This document shows, piece by piece, positions 7,384 through 64,000 of a stretch of DNA of 64,000 nt. Positions within the stretch are counted from its first letter, which is position 1. Every line of letters starts with the position of its first letter. The stretch comes from Candidatus Gastranaerophilales bacterium. Its GTDB lineage: Bacteria > Cyanobacteriota > Vampirovibrionia > Gastranaerophilales > Gastranaerophilaceae. Both the position numbers and the translations under genes were made by a program. The notes below the pieces were generated by a model, which worked only from the letters and a program-made list of their open reading frames with translations, did not search any database and was not told the origin of the DNA. The stretch covers positions 75,223 to 139,222 of the forward strand of contig CALVBS010000003.1 of NCBI GenBank assembly GCA_944325865.1. The letters are read 5' to 3'.

Positions 7384-7992
7384 TTATCTCATAGAGCTAT
7401 TAGATTTCAGATATTCTTTTTCTTTTTCTCCTTCAACGAGCATTTTGCCGTCAGGTTCAACTTTTATTTCGAATATATCAGGATCTTTACAATTATTTGA
7501 GTCAAATTCACAATTTGGCTCTTTATCAGTATTTACGTCAACATATATAGTTTCGGTATCTGTAAAATCACTGATAGGCATATACCAGGCGACACCATCT
7601 GTGGTTATGAAAGACGGTGTTGTGTAGGTTCCGTTTCCAACAGGGGTTGAATTAACAGTTTCACATTTTATTTCGTCATCATCTGTGGTGTTAACTTTTC
7701 TGGCAAATAAGCCGCAAAATTTATCCTGTCCTTCATAAGTATGTCCGAGATAACTGGCCAGAACTGTATTTGTAAAACCTACAGTTTCACCCTGAGTCGG
7801 ATAGAAGTCTTCATCATTTACCAGTTCAAAAATCATACGTTCAGCAACATAGTATGCTTTTCTGAACATAACTTTATTTTTATTAGGTCGAACATTTGCA
7901 ATAGCAGGTAGTAATAGAGCTGCTAAGATTCCGAACACCGCCAGAGTTACCATAACTTCAGCCAGTGTGAATGCATTTTTATTTTTTAACAT
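7384..7992 (-). CDS. Prepilin-like protein
   Basis: The 202-aa protein begins with MLKNKNA|FTLAEVMVTLAVFGILAALLLPAI, a classical prepilin leader except for Ala at -1. The body is homologous to the first 190 residues of the 5992 product: KFCGLFARK, a WYMPISDF segment, YVDVN, a PNCEF...CKDPD Cys pair, and a VEPDG segment. The pair therefore comes from a duplication, with the plus-strand copy carrying an extra C-terminal extension. Cleavage by a PilD-type peptidase would be needed; no pilD, pilT or pilB is in this window. It is expected to be inserted in the inner membrane before assembly. Confidence 0.8.
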   Translation of the reverse strand: MLKNKNAFTLAEVMVTLAVFGILAALLLPAIANVRPNKNKVMFRKAYYVAERMIFELVNDEDFYPTQGETVGFTNTVLASYLGHTYEGQDKFCGLFARKVNTTDDDEIKCETVNSTPVGNGTYTTPSFITTDGVAWYMPISDFTDTETIYVDVNTDKEPNCEFDSNNCKDPDIFEIKVEPDGKMLVEGEKEKEYLKSNSSMR

Positions 7993-8139
7993 AACAATCC
8001 TCGCTCAATTAAAAATAACAACCATTATTATTTTAACATATATTGAACAAAAATGCAATATATTCCTTGCTAATATTGACTTTTGGCACAATAAAAGTTA
8101 TAATATATATATAAGTAAAGAGTTGAATTCGGGGGTTGA

Positions 8140-9042
8140 ATGAGAATAAAAAAAGCATTTACGTTGGCTGAAGCTTTACTGGTATTTATCATAATCGGTA
8201 TAATTGCGGCAATAGGTATGAGTACGGTAAAGCCGTGGCAAAAATCATATAAATACTCATATTCCAGGATGTATAATGCGTTATCACTTGCAATTTACAA
8301 TCATATGATTAATTCAACAGAGGAAAATTCTTTCCCGGAAACTGCGGATGATTTTTGTAAGGCCCTACTTGAATGGATAAACACTGCGGATAATGCTACA
8401 ACCTGCCGAGGTTCTAATGTCGGTTTAAATCCGACATCATTCCCGGAAGAGAGGGTAAGAATGATGGCTTCAAACGGTACAAAAATCTGGATAGGTTCAA
8501 ATACCGATGAGACGCCGTTTATACTTAGCCAGAACATTGATGCATCTACCACAGATACTGTCAGATATTATATGGTATTTGTGGATATTAACGGAGACAG
8601 AGGGCCGAATACTGCTGAATGGAAACCAACACAAATGGCTGATATTGTTGCCTTTGCCGTAACTGATAAGTTTAAAGTAATTCCTCTTGGTTATCCGGAG
8701 GTTGACGGCAGATATCTGACGGCTCATGTAGTTTATCCTGTACTTGAGACTACTTATACGGATAATACAGGTACGGATTCATATACCGGTGACGAAGAGA
8801 TTGTTTCCGATCCTATGTCTTATTACGAAGCTAAAATTAATGCATATGGTAATGCTATAGTTGCAGGTAATATTGATACATATAATTTTAGGGATGTATT
8901 TCCTTATGGAAGTAATTTTAGAGTAGATAATTATAATGACTATTACGAAACTCCGCCTACATTTGATAATGTCTCTTGTGCCTTTGATGGAACAACTAAT
9001 CCTGAGCCGGTGTGCAGTGTAAAAATTTATGATTACCACTAA
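8140..9042 (+). CDS. Prepilin-like protein, 300 aa
   Basis: The leader MRIKKA|FTLAEALLVFIIIGIIAAIG has the basic pre-piece, Ala at -1, Glu at +5 and a hydrophobic N-terminal helix. GGGGG at 8131-8135 lies just upstream of the ATG and acts as the ribosome site. The body contains an MASNGTKIWIG segment and VDINGDRGPN, the Asp/Asn-rich turn common in bacterial pseudopilins. The start is divergent from the 7992 gene with about 150 bases between. It is likely a minor pilin or pseudopilin; its partners are the neighbouring genes. Confidence 0.78.
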   Translation: MRIKKAFTLAEALLVFIIIGIIAAIGMSTVKPWQKSYKYSYSRMYNALSLAIYNHMINSTEENSFPETADDFCKALLEWINTADNATTCRGSNVGLNPTSFPEERVRMMASNGTKIWIGSNTDETPFILSQNIDASTTDTVRYYMVFVDINGDRGPNTAEWKPTQMADIVAFAVTDKFKVIPLGYPEVDGRYLTAHVVYPVLETTYTDNTGTDSYTGDEEIVSDPMSYYEAKINAYGNAIVAGNIDTYNFRDVFPYGSNFRVDNYNDYYETPPTFDNVSCAFDGTTNPEPVCSVKIYDYH

Positions 9043-9055
9043 TATAATTAAGATA

Positions 9056-9088
9056 TAAAAAGACCTCCTGTAAAGGAGGTCTTTTTAA
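9056..9088 (+). terminator. Terminator of the 8140 gene
   Basis: A-run, then GACCTCC pairing with GGAGGTC around a CTGTAAA-type loop, then TTTTT. It is nearly identical to the hairpin at 9249-9283. Confidence 0.8.
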
Positions 9089-9099
9089 TATTAATAGCT

Positions 9100-9205
9100 T
9101 CGGCCCTCCTTGCCTCCCTTCCTAAGGGAGGTGACACGAAGTGTCGGTGGGTTTTATTCTTTACTACATTAAATCCCCCTTACCCCCTTTAAAAAGGGGG
9201 CTGTA
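9100..9205. repeat. Intergenic palindromic repeat cluster
   Basis: Four elements are packed into 105 bases: CCTCCCTT/AAGGGAGG (9113-9131), GACAC/GTGTC (9133-9145), and CCCCCTTT/AAAGGGGG (9183-9200), with G/C-rich links. The bases are far richer in G+C than the surrounding sequence. This resembles REP-type extragenic palindromes that are dispersed in many gut bacteria. Only one copy is in this window. Confidence 0.5.
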
Positions 9206-9248
9206 ATATGGCTAACTTCTTCAAGCAAAAGAAGAACTTGTGTCATAG

Positions 9249-9284
9249 TAAAAAAGACCTCCTATAAAGGAGGCCTTTTTATAT
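9249..9284 (-). terminator. Terminator of the minus-strand pseudopilin operon
   Basis: Read on the minus strand, AAGGCCTCC pairs with GGAGGTCTT and is followed by TTTTT. It lies 15 bases beyond the stop of the last gene of the operon (9298). Confidence 0.75.
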
Positions 9285-9297
9285 TTTAGGTGATTTA

Positions 9298-11949
9298 TTA
9301 CCACTTGATTAGCAATGCACCATCAGCACCCGGACCGGCCGGAACGTTATCCCAGTCATCACGACAATCTTCCGGTACATAGCGGTGTTCTGCAATAGCC
9401 TGTGTTGCCCCTGCAGCAGCAGCAGCTTCTTTGCTAGGGAATACACTGGTATCAAGCATTATTGACTGTTCAAATTCAACTTCAAACCTTCCTGCCCAGC
9501 ATCTATGTTCAACACCGCCGCCAGCACCGCCTCTGCCGTATTTGATAAATTTCTGGATAGCTTCAGAGTTGTCTGCAGTATTGAATATAAATGTCATAAT
9601 ACTTGAAGCAAATCCAACCGGTGTCGGGTATTCACCGAATGTACGGCCTGATACGATGTGGAACTTATAATCGCTGCCGCTTCCAAATACATTACATTCA
9701 GCAGGTCTGTCAGCTCCGCTTTTGCCGTAGCATCTTTCTTCCAAATCATATATTTCCTTGTCAAATTTAGGAAGTACAGAGCCGGTCTTGCTTATACCGC
9801 CTCTGCCGCCTTCACCGCCTTCAGCGTATATAATATTACCCATAGATGTAGCTGAACCTTTTGCACCATCCTGACCAAGGTTGAATGCTGCAGCAGAACC
9901 GCCTCTGCCGACTTTGATAGTGGTATCAACATCTTTTAATGAACGGACAATAACAGTCTTAAATTGACCAGGGGAACCGGCTTCACCATAGTTCAGGTAG
10001 TTATTGTCATATGAATAATCATATGAGTAATTACCATTTGGGGTTACAGTACCGTAAACGTGTTTTAGACAGTATCCGTAAGCACCGGTGCCGCAGACAC
10101 CAAGACCGGCATCACCCTCACATGTACCTGCAACTGCACTATTTTGATCTGCAGGTATTCCTTGATCGACACATTCACCTTCAGTATTAGGTGTACATGT
10201 TCTGCATGCTGCATCGCCGCCTTTAGAGGCACTATAGGCTTTTGCTGTTGATACGTCAGCACCATCTTTGTTTATGGTAAAGAATGATGAAGTAGGTCCA
10301 TTTGCTGAACCCGGAGCTCCACATTGATGAGCCATTCCGCCTTCACATGGGGCAAACCCTGCCTGAGCACAGGAACTGTCTCCAAAATATCCGCCTGTAA
10401 CAGTTGAACCTGTATCTACATCAGAACCATCCGTTCCGGTGGTTGCTGTAGAACCGGAACTATAGCCAAGATTAAAGTTACCTGCAACTGCCGGACCCGT
10501 ACAGCTTGCACCTGAAGCTCCAGGTGCTCCTGATACTGTTGATACACGATACTCATAAGTTTGTTCACTCCAAACATTACAGTTACTTGTTGTTTCAAGA
10601 TAATCTTCCCAATTTGTACACATCTCAACGCCATCACCCGTAACTGTTTCACATTCTGTTTCGCAGGTACAGTTGTTGTCAACTGTGGTATTTCTGTCTT
10701 CCGTAGGTGTACACTCTAAAACAGTATCATAGGTTGAACAATCGTATGCCTTATCCGGTCGTGGTGTCGTTGTCCATCCGCGACATTCACCTCTTTGACA
10801 TACTTCCTCTTCACCTATCTTTACCTGTTCACATTCCGGCGGACCTGTTATTGTTTCTTCTATAGTGCAAGAGCCGGTTGTTCTGCATCCATTGGATTGG
10901 TCACCTGTAATAGATGTAAGACTGCAATATGAAGAACCTCTGCAGGTAATCTGGAATCCCGGTTTTGTGATTGTCTCCGTTTTCGTTGTACAATCTTCTT
11001 CATATATAGGTTCCATATGGCAATTTTGTTCATAGCCGCCTGTGCATTCTACTAAAGGAGATTGCGGTTCATAGCAGGTTTTATAATCTCCAACCAGTAC
11101 TTTATGTGAGTCACAATCTTCACCGCGGGTAATTACTGTTATTGAACAAAGTTCACCGCCTGCAGCACCTGTTATCTTTCCTTTATTAAGAGGACCTTTG
11201 TTAAACGGTTTTAGAGCAAGTGTATCTTTGAAAATATTTGTGATTTTAGATGCTATTTTTACGAATGGATTATGACCGGTTGTCTCCCCGCCTTCACCTT
11301 CAGTTTCGCCTTCGCCTTCAGCGGGAGCTTCTTCTTTACAATAACATCTTTCTTCTTCAGAGCCATCTGTCGAAGTGTACCAGTTTGTACATCTGACTTT
11401 AGCTACTTTTTCATATTCAATACAGGTCAGAGGAAGTGCATTTTTGGTTGCGATACCGATATCACCTCCGGCACCTGAACCGCTGCTTTTTGCATAACCC
11501 CACAATTCCCCTGCATTGGCAAGGAAACCTTCTTTTGAAATATTAAGAGGTTCTAAGGCTTCTTCTGTTATACCCCATGGGGAAAGATCTCTTGCCCCGC
11601 TCCATCCGCCAATAGGATTACCTCCTGTGTAGCCGGCATCACCACCGCCGCCACCGCCGCCGATTGCGGATATCTGGAAGTATGCGGCCTTTTGAGGCGG
11701 TGAAAATACACACTGGTCTGTCGGTCTGTCGTAAACAACATTTTGTTGATTCTTTCCGGACCATTTTGCTTCGTATAGTTCACCGTTCTTGTAGTAACAC
11801 ATATAAGCACCGTGAACTACCACTGATGGTAATCTGAAATGCTTTTTGGTTACAACAGGAACAAGTGCTGCTATTATCAGTGATGAAACCAATAGCAGCA
11901 TCATTAATTCTACTAATGAAAACGCTCTTTTTTTGTGTTTAAATGCCAT
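9298..11949 (-). CDS. Cys- and Gly-rich giant pseudopilin (glycine-rich-domain fusion)
   Basis: The 883-aa protein has a prepilin leader MAFKHKKRA|FSLVELMMLLLVSSLIIAALVPVV. After it come a CYYKNGELYE segment, a CVFSPPQ motif, then ISAIGGGGGGGDAG at about 110-125, the entry to a glycine-rich domain. A middle block (about 270-500) is unusually rich in Cys, with many C-x(5-15)-C spacings. Later GRGG, DGAKGS and EGGEGGRGG stretches complete the glycine-rich fold. The chain ends DGALLIKW. The same order (prepilin, CYY, C-x-F-x-PP, GGGG, terminal W) is in both upstream genes. It is the last of three co-directional genes, 17 bases after the previous stop. Its role is inferred as a secreted filament or tip component. 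Confidence 0.75.
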   Translation of the reverse strand: MAFKHKKRAFSLVELMMLLLVSSLIIAALVPVVTKKHFRLPSVVVHGAYMCYYKNGELYEAKWSGKNQQNVVYDRPTDQCVFSPPQKAAYFQISAIGGGGGGGDAGYTGGNPIGGWSGARDLSPWGITEEALEPLNISKEGFLANAGELWGYAKSSGSGAGGDIGIATKNALPLTCIEYEKVAKVRCTNWYTSTDGSEEERCYCKEEAPAEGEGETEGEGGETTGHNPFVKIASKITNIFKDTLALKPFNKGPLNKGKITGAAGGELCSITVITRGEDCDSHKVLVGDYKTCYEPQSPLVECTGGYEQNCHMEPIYEEDCTTKTETITKPGFQITCRGSSYCSLTSITGDQSNGCRTTGSCTIEETITGPPECEQVKIGEEEVCQRGECRGWTTTPRPDKAYDCSTYDTVLECTPTEDRNTTVDNNCTCETECETVTGDGVEMCTNWEDYLETTSNCNVWSEQTYEYRVSTVSGAPGASGASCTGPAVAGNFNLGYSSGSTATTGTDGSDVDTGSTVTGGYFGDSSCAQAGFAPCEGGMAHQCGAPGSANGPTSSFFTINKDGADVSTAKAYSASKGGDAACRTCTPNTEGECVDQGIPADQNSAVAGTCEGDAGLGVCGTGAYGYCLKHVYGTVTPNGNYSYDYSYDNNYLNYGEAGSPGQFKTVIVRSLKDVDTTIKVGRGGSAAAFNLGQDGAKGSATSMGNIIYAEGGEGGRGGISKTGSVLPKFDKEIYDLEERCYGKSGADRPAECNVFGSGSDYKFHIVSGRTFGEYPTPVGFASSIMTFIFNTADNSEAIQKFIKYGRGGAGGGVEHRCWAGRFEVEFEQSIMLDTSVFPSKEAAAAAGATQAIAEHRYVPEDCRDDWDNVPAGPGADGALLIKW

Positions 11950-11966
11950 ATCTTAATCCTTTCAAA

Positions 11967-13010
11967 TTACCATAAGAATAGTACACCGCCATCATAGCCG
12001 GCGGCATTTTTTGCTCCGCCTGTTCCAACTTTTGCATCTTTCATTTTTGATGAGTATTGCATACTTTCGATATATCTTGCGAGATTTGACGGTGTTTCTC
12101 CGTCACCTTCTGCATTTGTATCCATTACAAGCTCCATTGTATAAAGTGAAGGTGTCCATAAATCATCAACTTTCGGCTCCCAATCAAATTGATAAACGGG
12201 GTTGGTTTCTTCACTGTAGTCGCTCCATAAGCTTATATCATGATATATCCAGACACTGTTGTCATCTGGCTTTTGTTCTGTATATACATCATTTACAATA
12301 AATCGAGGGTTATCAAGTATTAAATTCCCATCATCATCAAAATCTTTGTATGTTAACTGGGATGTTTTATAAAATTCTCTTGTACGACAGAAGCTTACTT
12401 GTATTTTACCGTCTTTTATTTCACAAGTCGGATAAATATTACAGTTATATTCATCACCTTCAGCGTATTCCGTAATTACACAGGTCAATATATCATTGAC
12501 GGTCGTATTTTCTAATGTTGCAAGAGCTTTTCCTCCGTTTGCAGTCATTAGTTCAACTCCGTTACCCATTACGACAGTATCACCGCCATGATTGTTTGCA
12601 AGGCCGCCTCTACCAGGTGTTGCCGTATATTTTGCGTGGACAGAAGCAAAGAATGTACTTGCAAATTGGCCTTCACTACCTCCGCCTGCAGGGCCGCCAC
12701 CGGCACCGCCTCCAACAGCATCAATAATCATGTATTTAGCATAATAAGGTGGTACAAACGAACAAGATGTCGATGTTCCGCCGGCATCAGCCGCTTTTTG
12801 TCTGCCCGTAGTACTTCCTTCCGTAAACATTTGCTGATACAAAGTACCGCCTTCATAGTAGCATTCAAATCTACCGTGAGCTTCAGATGCTACTTTTGAT
12901 TTAGCTTTGTGTGGAATAACATTTGCCATTACCGCAACAAAAATCGCAACAATAATCATTACGACGCAGGCTTCCATCAATGAAAATCCATTTTTAAAAT
13001 TTTTATCCAT
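11967..13010 (-). CDS. Glycine-rich-domain pseudopilin, 347 aa
   Basis: I choose the ATG at 13010, giving MDKNFKNG|FSLMEACVVMIIVAIFVAVMA, a canonical prepilin leader with Gly at -1. The longer frame to 13109 overlaps the upstream gene and would put a 33-residue basic stretch before the leader. Downstream are ECYYEGGTLYQ, CSFVPPYYAKYMIIDAVGGGAGGG and PGRGG...GGDTVV...ANGGKA, all shared with its two neighbours, and the chain ends DGGVLFLW. It starts 5 bases after the upstream stop, so translational coupling is likely. It is the shortest and simplest of the three and may show the minimal architecture of the family. Confidence 0.75.
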   Translation of the reverse strand: MDKNFKNGFSLMEACVVMIIVAIFVAVMANVIPHKAKSKVASEAHGRFECYYEGGTLYQQMFTEGSTTGRQKAADAGGTSTSCSFVPPYYAKYMIIDAVGGGAGGGPAGGGSEGQFASTFFASVHAKYTATPGRGGLANNHGGDTVVMGNGVELMTANGGKALATLENTTVNDILTCVITEYAEGDEYNCNIYPTCEIKDGKIQVSFCRTREFYKTSQLTYKDFDDDGNLILDNPRFIVNDVYTEQKPDDNSVWIYHDISLWSDYSEETNPVYQFDWEPKVDDLWTPSLYTMELVMDTNAEGDGETPSNLARYIESMQYSSKMKDAKVGTGGAKNAAGYDGGVLFLW

Positions 13011-13015
13011 AATTC

Positions 13016-14575
13016 TTACCATAAGATTACAACTGCTCCATCTCCGCCATCTTTTGCCTCGCATTTCATATTTCTGCCACTTCCGGTCGGCGTTTCTCCG
13101 TTTGCACATTTAAATGTTCCTGACGGGGTAGTACATTTGTGAACCTTTACATTTTGTAATTGTGTTTTACACCTAATTCTAAAAGTGTTCACATTAAATT
13201 CACAATTATAAAATTTTGTTGTAGGTGAATATGCTGTAGGGTTAGGTGTATCATCCGCAAATGTTGCTGTAGATGTACCATAATCATAATTAACTACAAA
13301 ATGTGAACAATTTGAAGGATCAGGACAGCTTGTATCAAGGGTGCTGGTGTTTGTACCTATTGTACAATCAAATTTGATAGCTGTTTGTGGTGTACAATAT
13401 CCTTCTCGTTCGATTACAACGCTTGACTCTGTCGCATCAGTACAATTTGATGTGTATCCGTAATTTCTGTAGAAATTTAAACCTATGGAATCGGTAATAA
13501 CTTCCCATTTACTGCCAATTCTTCTTGCATTTACAATACTGTCATTGTTATCCCATTCATAGAAAATATATCCTGAAGTGTCATCAACGAATTGAGTTTC
13601 TCCGTTTCCGCCGGCACCTGCATCATACGAAATTTTAGTTTTCAAAGCATCAAATTTTTCTGCACTTTCGGTAATATCTGAAAATCCGGCGTCTTTACCT
13701 GTTATTGAGGCTAAACTGCTTAAACCAAAATCTCCGGGATTACTGCCAATCATCATTTCTGAAATTTTGCCGTCAATCCCCCCGTTACCGCCAACGCCGC
13801 CACGTGCAACAAGACCTTCAAACCGTTTTTCTGCTCCGCCTTCTTCACCGGGTTCGTAAACAAATTCTACAATGGTATCGCCGCCGTCTTCACCGCTGCC
13901 ATCGCCATTTGTTGTAGCTTTACCTCCTTTTCCAGGTGTGAGTTCAAGTTTTACGTTCCCAGGAAGCTGCGGCACAAACAATGAAACTACTTTTGCCGCA
14001 GTACCGCCAAGACGATATCTAACTGTTTGTTGGAATGATACTTTATTTACATCAAACGCACCGTCTCCGGTAGCACCTATTTTAATATTCCAAGGAATTT
14101 CCGAAGTCGGTTTGCTCATTACAAAATCTACCCAATCCGGAAACAGTCCCGGTGAAGATTTATAAAGATAACTTACTGCTGATACTTGTTCCACAGGATC
14201 AAGTTGTGCCTTGTCTGTCGTCAATTTGGCCCCCGCACCGCCGCCGCCTACTGCGTGTATCATAAAGTATATGGTGTTTTGCGGCGGAGAAAAGACGCAT
14301 TTCCCTTCATCTGCATATGCTGACTCGGAAGAAATCGCTCTGCCGTTTTCTTCCGCCATATAGGTCATCAGTTTTTTACTGCCGTCCTCCTGAGTTTCCC
14401 AGTAACATTCGTATCTGCCGTGGCTTTTTCTCATATCATCCAGCTTGAAAACCTTTTTGGTTGCCATAGGTAACGATAGGATTATCAACATAATTATCGC
14501 CATTACAATAAGCATTTCAGCCAATGTATATGCAGATTCTTTCCAGTTTTTACCAGTATCAGCCAATCTTCGCAT
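13016..14575 (-). CDS. Glycine-rich-domain pseudopilin, 519 aa
   Basis: First gene of the operon. The leader is WKESA|YTLAEMLIVMAIIMLIILSLPMATKK with Ala at -1 and Tyr at +1. Next come RYECYWE, KCVFSPPQNTIYFMIHAVGGGGAGA, then LTPGKGG...GEDGGDTIVEF and ARGGVGGNGG, and a Cys-bearing region (residues about 390-500). The chain ends DGAVVILW. The AGAGG ribosome site lies 9 bases before ATG 14575. The glycine-rich region resembles in plan the glycine-rich domain of ALK/LTK-type receptors and of bacterial glycine-rich-domain proteins; this is an analogy from motif spacing, not a search result. Confidence 0.75.
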   Translation of the reverse strand: MRRLADTGKNWKESAYTLAEMLIVMAIIMLIILSLPMATKKVFKLDDMRKSHGRYECYWETQEDGSKKLMTYMAEENGRAISSESAYADEGKCVFSPPQNTIYFMIHAVGGGGAGAKLTTDKAQLDPVEQVSAVSYLYKSSPGLFPDWVDFVMSKPTSEIPWNIKIGATGDGAFDVNKVSFQQTVRYRLGGTAAKVVSLFVPQLPGNVKLELTPGKGGKATTNGDGSGEDGGDTIVEFVYEPGEEGGAEKRFEGLVARGGVGGNGGIDGKISEMMIGSNPGDFGLSSLASITGKDAGFSDITESAEKFDALKTKISYDAGAGGNGETQFVDDTSGYIFYEWDNNDSIVNARRIGSKWEVITDSIGLNFYRNYGYTSNCTDATESSVVIEREGYCTPQTAIKFDCTIGTNTSTLDTSCPDPSNCSHFVVNYDYGTSTATFADDTPNPTAYSPTTKFYNCEFNVNTFRIRCKTQLQNVKVHKCTTPSGTFKCANGETPTGSGRNMKCEAKDGGDGAVVILW

Positions 14576-50440: not shown

Positions 50441-51427
50441 TTATTTTCTTTTGAACTCAAGCTTAAATCCGAGTATATAAATCTTTTTATGAATTTTGTC
50501 AGACGAATTTCTAATTGAAAACAGTTTTTGAGAAAGAAATTTGAATCTGTTTTGCGGATTTATAACTGGACAGCCGAGAGCATTTTCTTTGTATTTTTCT
50601 TTTAAATGACTAAAATAAAATGATGAAATGTATTCCATCATAAACCCTGTTATTCTTGGATAAATATTATTATTGTTTTCTGTTTCTTTTTTTATTGTTA
50701 AATACGTTTCCTCTGTCCAATTTTCCTTGACCCAGTCTAAAAACATTGCATTTACTTCCTCTTGAGGCTTTGCAAGAAAATCAAACATTAGCGGGAAAAT
50801 TTCTTCACAATATTCAAAAAAATCTTCCTTTTTCATTATAAACATATTATTAAAATAATAAATTTTTTCTTTTTGAAATTTTTGATACTGTTTGTATAAT
50901 ATTGGATGATATTTTGCAGAAAGATTTACTATTTTCTGATAACCGTCAAATGAATGAGGTTGTTTAAAAACGTCGGTTCCTTCTCGAAAAACTGTTTCAT
51001 ATTTTGAAAATATTTTATTTAAACATTTATTGTTTAAACCTATTAGATTTAATAATCTAAAACTGTGAATTTTTAAAATATCTGAAAAATCAAAAAATCG
51101 TCTATAGTGGCATAGGCCTATATAATCAGGATTCCCGAGTTTGTCATAATTTTTCCACGCCCAGTATATTGCGGTCATTTCATTGACATCGCGATTAAGT
51201 TTTGAGATATTATCTCCCGTATCGTCGCCAATCATATTATCTAACATCCACTGATAATCTTCCTGACTCATTTTTCCGTCTTTGGATGTTTCGCAGGCTA
51301 AAGCTCTTCCGCAGTGGATTGGAACTAAAACGTCATTTTTAAATAACTTGTCTTTTTTGTGGTAGCAGACAAGGATTTTACCCCCCCCCCCCTGTCTGAA
51401 ATTATCTCTACGATTGTGTTTTAGCAT
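50441..51427 (-). CDS. DUF4422 glycosyltransferase-like protein with G12 tract (phase ON)
   Basis: The 328-aa protein matches the DUF4422 capsule-type family: KILVCYHKKD near the start, PIHCGRALA, GDDTGDNISKLNRDVNEMTAIYWAWKNYDKL and PDYIGLCHYRRFFDF (residues about 17-115). The start ATG 51427 has GGGAGG 7 bases upstream. Codons 12-16 are a run of 12 G (51392 to 51381 on the minus strand) that gives four Gly. Gain or loss of 1-2 G would shift frame at residue 12 with no restart nearby. In this sequence the frame is intact. It most likely makes a surface polysaccharide that varies among cells. Confidence 0.85.
   Translation of the reverse strand: MLKHNRRDNFRQGGGGKILVCYHKKDKLFKNDVLVPIHCGRALACETSKDGKMSQEDYQWMLDNMIGDDTGDNISKLNRDVNEMTAIYWAWKNYDKLGNPDYIGLCHYRRFFDFSDILKIHSFRLLNLIGLNNKCLNKIFSKYETVFREGTDVFKQPHSFDGYQKIVNLSAKYHPILYKQYQKFQKEKIYYFNNMFIMKKEDFFEYCEEIFPLMFDFLAKPQEEVNAMFLDWVKENWTEETYLTIKKETENNNNIYPRITGFMMEYISSFYFSHLKEKYKENALGCPVINPQNRFKFLSQKLFSIRNSSDKIHKKIYILGFKLEFKRK
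51381..51392. repeat. Poly-G(12) coding homopolymer (contingency tract)
   Basis: Twelve C on the plus strand (G on the coding strand) in the fourth turn of the DUF4422 gene. Surrounding coding DNA is AT-rich, so the run is not composition noise. Long poly-G tracts are hypermutable by slipped-strand mispairing. Confidence 0.9.
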
Positions 51428-62740: not shown

Positions 62741-64000
62741 ATGATTATTAAAAAGAGAGTATGCATTTCAGTTATATTAACTGTTTTTGCGATTATTTTT
62801 ACCAATCATTTCTGGCTGGTGAGAAAACCTTTAGATGTCAAGCTGTATGCATCGGGTGATAATATAAAACAGATAGAGGTACAGCTTAGTAAAGAAAACT
62901 CTCCAGAATTTAAAAAGTTTAAGTCGAGGATATCATCAGAGGATATATTATACGGAACAACCCTTGAGTATATCTTTAAAAAGCCGAGGAATCCCAAATG
63001 GCTGAAAATCGTTGCAGTATCTGACACCACCGGGGGGGGGGGCACGCCTAACTCTTAGCAATATCAGTATTAAGAACCATAAATACAAGCTAAGTGATTT
63101 AGAAAATTTTTCCGCTAAAAATGCATCTTTAAGAATTCAGGAAAATCAATTAATTATAATTCCTGACAATAAGGAATTTGAGATTAGTTATAATAAATCT
63201 CTTGATATCAGAGGAAGTATAAAATTTGATATAAAAATTTTACTGATAATAGTAATTCTGACGTATTTAGCATCTTATAAGTTAACATCCTATCTTGCAG
63301 ATTTTAAAGTTTCAGAAAATAAATCAAGACTGGATATTATATTTTTAACAATATTTTTCATTTTATTGTATATACCAATGATGAAAATTTCAGATGAGGA
63401 AATCTCCCCAAAAGAAAACCGGAGACTAGCAGCATATAAACCATTTATCGAGCATAATGAAATAAATTATAATTTCGGCAAAGATTTCGACAGCTGGTTT
63501 TCCGATAGATTCTTGTTAAGAGATGTCTTAATACCGCTATATAATAAAATTAATTTGACCTTAAGAAGTGATTTTGTTGAAACTCGAAAAGTTGATTTAA
63601 TAAAAAGTAACGGTTGGATGTTTGAAAAATATCCAAATATATTAACACAAGAAGAGCTTATCAAAATAGCTTCTAATTTAAATACACTAAATCAATTTTG
63701 TATTAATCATAATATAAAATTATATATACTTATCCCTCCAGCTAAAGAATTTTACTATAGAAAATATTATTCCAGATATAAAAATGCACCGAAAGATCCT
63801 ACCCCTTACTTAGTAAACTATGCAAAAGAAAAATATAAGTTGGATATAATTTATCCGGAAAAAGAATTAAGGCAAGAAGAAAAAGAAAATTATATCTATT
63901 TTAAAACTGATCATCATTTAACTGATTATGGGAGTTATATTGTTTATAAGGTGTTAATGACTAAAATGTCTCATGAGTTACCTATGTTAAAACCTACTTC
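62741..64000 (+). CDS. AlgX/AlgJ-like O-acetyltransferase, frame-shifted at G11 (phase OFF), 3' end outside window
   Basis: ATG 62741 opens a frame with a membrane span (residues 8-28) that ends prematurely at 63058. The G11 tract at 63032-63042 is followed, in the +1-shifted frame from 63042, by a continuous open frame to the window end. That part has two membrane spans (about 63225-63300 and 63330-63385), then ISDEEISPKENRRLAAY, FDSWFSDRFLLRDVL and KTDHHLTDYG, i.e. the SGNH-like AlgX/AlgJ/DHHW signature. Removing one G (G10) joins the parts. So it is a cell-surface polysaccharide acetyltransferase in the OFF state, or a sequencing error. Confidence 0.8.
63032..63042. repeat. Poly-G(11) coding homopolymer (contingency tract)
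   Basis: Eleven G in an AT-rich gene, exactly at the point where the reading frame changes. G10 or G13 would restore the acetyltransferase frame; G11 gives a stop codon 5 codons after the tract. Confidence 0.9.

Follow-up and report, generated by a model that had tools for sequence, protein, structure and literature searches.

An 11-base guanine homopolymer (G11) separates the two reading frames of a putative SGNH O-acyltransferase gene of a Gastranaerophilales bacterium. It is very probably a slipped-strand (simple-sequence-repeat) contingency switch that was sampled in its closed state, as part of a genome-wide set. The DNA analysed was a stretch of 64,000 nucleotides (G000:C3:75223-139222, referred to as the window) from a genome of 2.03 Mb and 99% completeness (G000, the host genome), whose proteins are consistent with the Gastranaerophilales.

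Reading frames and domains of the interrupted gene

The features of the gene were laid out as follows:

62741..63031, plus strand: 5' part of the SGNH O-acyltransferase-like gene (ATG, membrane span and first strands of the N-terminal domain; 97 codons), from frames, homologue alignment and a dN/dS of 0.13 against the sister species G173
63032..63042, plus strand: G11 homopolymer that would act as the slippage switch, located in the N-terminal domain in a variable loop; G7-G13 or C10-C11 at the homologous position
63043..63058, plus strand: out-of-frame tail and premature stop as assembled, from reading-frame inspection
63045..64000 and beyond the window, plus strand: 3' part of the SGNH O-acyltransferase-like gene in the other frame, with two membrane spans and the SGNH-like domain (ALGX/DHHW), from Pfam and the PDB relative PatB1

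The run was found to consist of exactly 11 G (63032-63042). The left frame begins with ATG at 62741, continues for 97 codons up to the tract and terminates at 63056-63058, and the right frame is open from 63045 for 434 codons as far as G000:C3:139568, past the window end; the registers of the two frames differ by one base. By inspection, one hydrophobic span is present in the left half (VCISVILTVFAIIFTNHFWL) and two in the right half (IKILLIIVILTYLASYKL and LDIIFLTIFFILLYIPMM), the latter being followed by TDHHLTDYG and, past the window end, by LLLLGDSF. The right half matched the Pfam family ALGX (PF16822, E 7e-9, 36 bits, cut-off 26.5), and DHHW (PF14286) was also above its cut-off; the nearest solved structure by sequence was that of PatB1 from B. 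cereus (PDB 5v8d, E 4e-10). The catalytic DxH and GDS motifs are present as DHHL and GDSF; some homologues miss the simple patterns that were used. The preliminary description of an AlgX/AlgJ-like gene broken at an 11-base poly-G with both halves intact, one span to the left and two spans with TDHHLTDYG to the right, was confirmed by the tract, the two open frames and the ALGX/DHHW matches. No strong Shine-Dalgarno (SD) sequence was seen before the start of the gene. Internal starts that would bypass the tract were also considered, and none was present in the right frame ahead of the membrane spans.

An MBOAT gene (PF03062, E 3e-36) lies about 110 bases downstream (G000:C3:139681-141072, outside the window) and, to judge by their sequences, the two genes have the layout of MBOAT-SGNH O-acyltransferase pairs (PMC4148444, PMC12148441). 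Single-base changes of the tract during replication would bring the frame behind it into line with the start or take it out of line. With the frames aligned, the full SGNH protein would be made and, together with the adjacent MBOAT protein, would acetylate a polysaccharide of the surface or cell wall; otherwise the product would be no more than a short stub anchored in the membrane, and acetylation by the SGNH-MBOAT pair would stop. In the assembled state the closed SGNH gene would yield only this stub, and the MBOAT pair should therefore not acetylate its target.

Homologous tracts and selection on closed genes

Relatives of the gene were found at E < 1e-30 in 99 of 383 genomes of the family. 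Among the 30 best loci, a homopolymer occupies the homologous place in 12 independent genomes including the host, with lengths of G11 (host), G8, G12, G11, G11, G12, G13, C10, C11, G12, G7 and G12; about 10 further loci of the 30 are free of a tract, and all of these are open. As assembled, seven of the 12 tract-bearing homologues are closed and five are open. The nearest named relative, Candidatus Gastranaerophilales BRZ_GG__bin5 (L051), is identical to G114 over the gene and was counted once with it, and L057, with G17 beside a contig end, was excluded from the counts of homologous sites. Sequence alignment placed the tract between two strands of the N-terminal domain, in a variable loop; in other homologues a tract is found in a second loop of this domain.

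Poly-C replaces poly-G at the homologous loop in two genomes, and the position of the tract has been conserved while the proteins diverged by about 50%. Such conservation, with either base and with open as well as closed frames, would be expected of a maintained switch. The same gene had been expected to occur with different tract lengths in other genomes, as it does. The preliminary description had named, as evidence that would count against its own reading, a single fixed length and an open frame throughout the genomes, and this is refuted by the differences in length and state.

Selection was estimated from dN/dS. Between the host and G173, in both of which the gene is closed, the ratio was 0.13 for the left half and 0.20 for the right half, values that are approximate at a dS of about 1.5. 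Ratios of 0.10 between two closed prepilin paralogues, of 0.07 for an orthologous prepilin pair of which one copy is open and one closed, and of 0.07 for a DUF4422 gene against its G173 orthologue were obtained as well. Closed genes are thus not decaying, because dN/dS is low in closed copies. Simple decay, in which a pseudogene became frameshifted at a fragile homopolymer, could account for the closed state of the gene in G000, G173 and G114, but both halves are intact and have evolved at a dN/dS of 0.13-0.20 between two closed copies, open copies retain the tract, and drift would erode a long tract that is instead kept in place; we regard this explanation as extremely unlikely. Together, homologous tracts of variable length and purifying selection on the halves exclude ordinary decay and argue strongly against an artefact of assembly or sequencing.

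G tracts in prepilin leaders and across the family

Runs were counted genome-wide by pattern searches. In the host genome, 18 runs of G10-12 were observed, compared with about 0.26-0.31 runs of at least 10 G expected from the Markov composition of the window. The spectrum of run lengths is bimodal (54 runs of G6, five of G7-8, none of G9 and 18 of G10-12), so the long runs form a separate, maintained class. Thirteen of the 18 tracts lie in type IV prepilin-like genes; the other five lie in the SGNH gene, in a DUF4422 gene (in frame), in an autotransporter-like gene (in frame), at the 3' end of a GT8/TupA ATP-grasp gene, and at one apparently intergenic site. The earlier reading of the SGNH gene as phase-variable and in the OFF state is supported by this set of G10-12 tracts in surface genes, by the homologous tracts and by the selection on both halves. 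The DUF4422 gene lies within the window:

50441..51427, minus strand: DUF4422 (PF14393) glycosyltransferase-like gene, in frame (ON) as assembled; dN/dS 0.07 against G173
51381..51392, minus strand: G12 homopolymer in the DUF4422 gene, 11 codons past the start; GGGAGGGGGGGG in the G173 orthologue, of equal length and interrupted

The leaders of the 13 tract-bearing prepilins share one order: an SD-preceded ATG, 9-11 codons, the tract, 7-52 residues and the motif FTLAEV(L/I). The SD-preceded ATG was found 9-11 codons ahead of the tract in 13 of 13 cases, and in all 13 the tract is in the leader, upstream of the predicted cleavage site; two are in frame and 11 out of frame. Most of these genes share a DNA cassette, TTTC-Gn-CAAG..AATTTAAGCTCTCC; a scan of viral contigs for the prepilin cassette gave no match. 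Between tract and cleavage motif there was no in-frame start in 10 of the 13 prepilins, and one is possible in the other three. N_methyl (PF07963) scored above its cut-off in some tract prepilins and slightly below it in others, TIGR02532 scored above its own cut-off, and DUF6613 (PF20318) was found in several. With the tract ahead of the predicted cleavage site, the mature prepilin should be the same whatever the tract length, as established prepilin processing would imply; a change in length would switch the gene and leave the mature protein as it is. Pili and flagella genes including pilD have been reported for a Gastranaerophilales genome (PMC5877343).

The 2.03 Mb host genome has 77 N_methyl places, which is unusually many, 13 of them with G tracts; among 30 N_methyl loci examined (L082-L111), the tract-free prepilin-like loci have mostly short leaders of 4-25 residues. 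Stretches resembling repeats (e.g., ...GGGTNVPE...) are scattered through the leaders of L035, L036, L044, L089 and L090, in tract-bearing leaders between tract and cleavage motif; L089 and L090 are repeat-like leaders without a tract. Within the window, several weak N_methyl matches occur at 7384-14575 in long frames (202-883 aa), mostly without a Pfam match, and this cluster is possibly a pilus or secretion operon.

Within the family, the number of G9+ tracts ranges from 0 to about 176 per genome (genomes of 1.6-2.3 Mb), with sharp differences between sister genera; 0-4 were counted in the other families of the order and 0-9 in the class, with few genomes sampled, and larger, more GC-rich Cyanobacteria also have many G runs by count. 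The tracts of relatives lie in prepilins, flagellins and glycosyltransferases. Prepilin leaders accounted for 24 of 29 sampled tracts in G009 and for 16 of 30 in G041, and 24 and 11 prepilin-leader tracts were found in G022 and G058, respectively; the leader cassette differs by genus, each having its own. One tract of G041 splits a GT2 glycosyltransferase. In G077 (L222-L241) there are many G9-G11 tracts, none of those sampled being in prepilins and several being in membrane-protein frames or intergenic. At least six of 10 sampled tracts of G092 share one flank, with G11-G12 (L250-L253, L258, L259); at the one locus tested against Pfam (L250), Flagellin_N lies on one side of the tract and Flagellin_C on the other, with GLUG repeats. 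By their sequences, the G092 tract genes appear to be phase-variable flagellins in another genus of the family. Many tracts of G041 lie within about 200 bases of contig ends, which is consistent with repeated leader cassettes breaking assemblies.

The frame state of prepilin-leader tracts was tabulated for six genomes. Only 14 of 91 tracts (15%) were in frame, below the one third expected from random frames; this figure describes a pattern and not a probability, the paralogues being non-independent. For the first four genomes, 42 of 56 prepilin tracts had one G too many, nine were in frame and five had one too few, and for five further, held-out genomes the numbers were 27 with one too few, five in frame and three with one too many. 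A universal frame rule (always one G too many) thus failed the held-out test, in which the bias was reversed, and the excess of closed frames held in both genome sets. The offset tends to recur within a genome, being one too many in G000, G009 and G041 and one too few in G022.

G runs can promote frameshifting. If the ribosome or RNA polymerase slipped on the run during decoding, the gene would be expressed to some extent whatever the length in the DNA, and this could explain that most tract genes are out of frame and that the offset often recurs within a genome despite differing tract lengths. A single decoding mechanism, however, predicts one direction, whereas the preferred offset is opposite between genera; the length differences between close species fit slippage in the DNA, and the tract-free open homologues need no decoding slippage. 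This explanation is considered unlikely.

An artefact, either a miscounted homopolymer or spurious poly-G from two-colour chemistry, was weighed against the same data. No part of a consensus is less reliable than the length of a homopolymer, many of the genomes probably come from metagenome assembly, contig ends are the site of some tracts in other genomes, and the ON share of the prepilin tracts is low (15%). The tracts nevertheless lie inside contigs with both flanks conserved. Many independent assemblies have them at homologous sites, they occur on either strand and in some cases consist of C instead of G, and they cluster in surface genes, where their distance from the start codon is fixed; the other families of the order and the class yielded only the small numbers given above. 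Spurious poly-G is rejected because of positional conservation and the substitution by poly-C. A one-base miscount confined to the site in the SGNH gene is possible; as a general explanation, an artefact is judged quite improbable.

Comparison with the sister species G173, which shares 91-97% DNA identity with the host at common loci, gave G12 in the host and G11 in G173 for one orthologous prepilin tract. In the DUF4422 gene, G12 of the host corresponds to GGGAGGGGGGGG in G173, where an A interrupts the tract, the total length is equal and the frame is kept; to judge by its sequence, the interrupted tract should be more stable, as if locked open. L140 and L042 have a common upstream flank and different pilins, and L141 and L049 have a common pilin and different leaders, so that the comparison of the sister species suggests a possible exchange of leaders or pilins around the tract or at the conserved FTLAEV region. 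In Neisseria, G runs near pilin loci promote recombination. These two pairs would also suit a tract that served mainly as a recombination element (a G-quadruplex or a crossover for cassette exchange) rather than as a frame switch. Against this, the SGNH gene, the DUF4422 gene and the flagellins bear tracts without such cassettes, the tracts lie in coding frames between the start codon and the domain to be switched, and poly-C replaces poly-G at the homologous place in the SGNH gene family; a role mainly in recombination is therefore very unlikely.

Directly supported are the tract and its enrichment, the frames, the conserved position, the differing lengths from species to species and the purifying selection that acts on closed genes. 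Four attributes of a contingency locus are present: a tract far beyond chance, an effect of its length on the frame of an otherwise intact gene, differences in length and state among homologues, and selection while closed.

Probable extent of switching and relation to known systems

For the family as a whole, it seems rather likely that the slippage-controlled surface repertoire of the Gastranaerophilaceae ranks among the largest known. In each genome, tens to over 100 prepilin-like genes would each be switched by poly-G within a common leader cassette that is cleaved off, the majority being closed at any given moment, and flagellins, glycosyltransferases and O-acetylation would be under the same kind of control; each cell would present a different small subset of pili, and cassettes may be exchanged between paralogues. 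The benefit of switching would be surface heterogeneity.

Many-gene switching of the poly-G kind has so far been described mainly in pathogens, and here it would occur in a bacterium of the gut that is a distant relative of the photosynthetic cyanobacteria. A 2025 review (PMC11868660) named as a major open question the reason for the apparent restriction to pathogens of genomes rich in phase-variable loci. The Gastranaerophilaceae are a widespread, uncultured gut lineage of the cyanobacterial phylum, are not known as pathogens and have between 0 and about 176 G9+ tracts per genome; because tract numbers vary sharply between sister genera, the question can be tested within one family. When genes for pili, flagella and surface acetylation seem broken or absent in assemblies of this lineage, they may simply be in the off state, and gene content should therefore be inferred with care.

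The mechanism had been described in advance as unreported for this lineage, in agreement with our searches of open-licence PMC papers, in which no paper combining Gastranaerophilales with phase variation was found, an absence that is no proof, and in which the Melainabacteria literature contained only unrelated mentions. Contingency loci with poly-G or poly-C are known from Neisseria, Campylobacter and Helicobacter (PMC5084427, PMC2823697, PMC11868660). Like these, the present tracts are long runs of G or C within coding sequences, most of which belong to surface genes; their lengths differ from species to species, and both on and off frames occur. The present case differs in that the organisms are non-photosynthetic gut relatives of Cyanobacteria, prepilin leaders dominate, up to 176 G9+ tracts are present, and switching is deduced from sequence.

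Phase-variable O-acetylation is on record for oafA of Haemophilus influenzae, according to the citation of Wills et al. 2023 in PMC11868660. Both cases concern a repeat-controlled acetyltransferase that would alter a surface glycan. The oafA product is an acyltransferase-3 protein switched by another repeat, whereas the gene studied here would encode the SGNH partner of an MBOAT pair and has a poly-G tract. Known MBOAT-SGNH pairs are AlgI with AlgJ/AlgX (PMC4148444), PatA with PatB (PMC12148441) and PatA1 with PatB1 (PDB 5v8d). The gene resembles their SGNH members in its match to Pfam ALGX, the order of DxH before GDS, the adjacent MBOAT gene and PatB1 as the nearest solved sequence; unlike AlgJ, AlgX and PatB, it has an extra membrane-anchored N-terminal domain with a G tract in a loop.

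Slippage in leader-coding sequence occurs in opa and pilC of Neisseria. As in those genes, the repeat of the tract prepilins lies in the part that encodes the cleaved leader, where its length would leave the mature protein unaltered; here, in contrast, the leader is that of a prepilin, and a family-specific DNA cassette is common to many prepilin paralogues. The mechanism itself, slippage at G tracts, is known; judged by the papers that were searched, the novelty lies in the lineage, the scale and the prepilin-leader arrangement.
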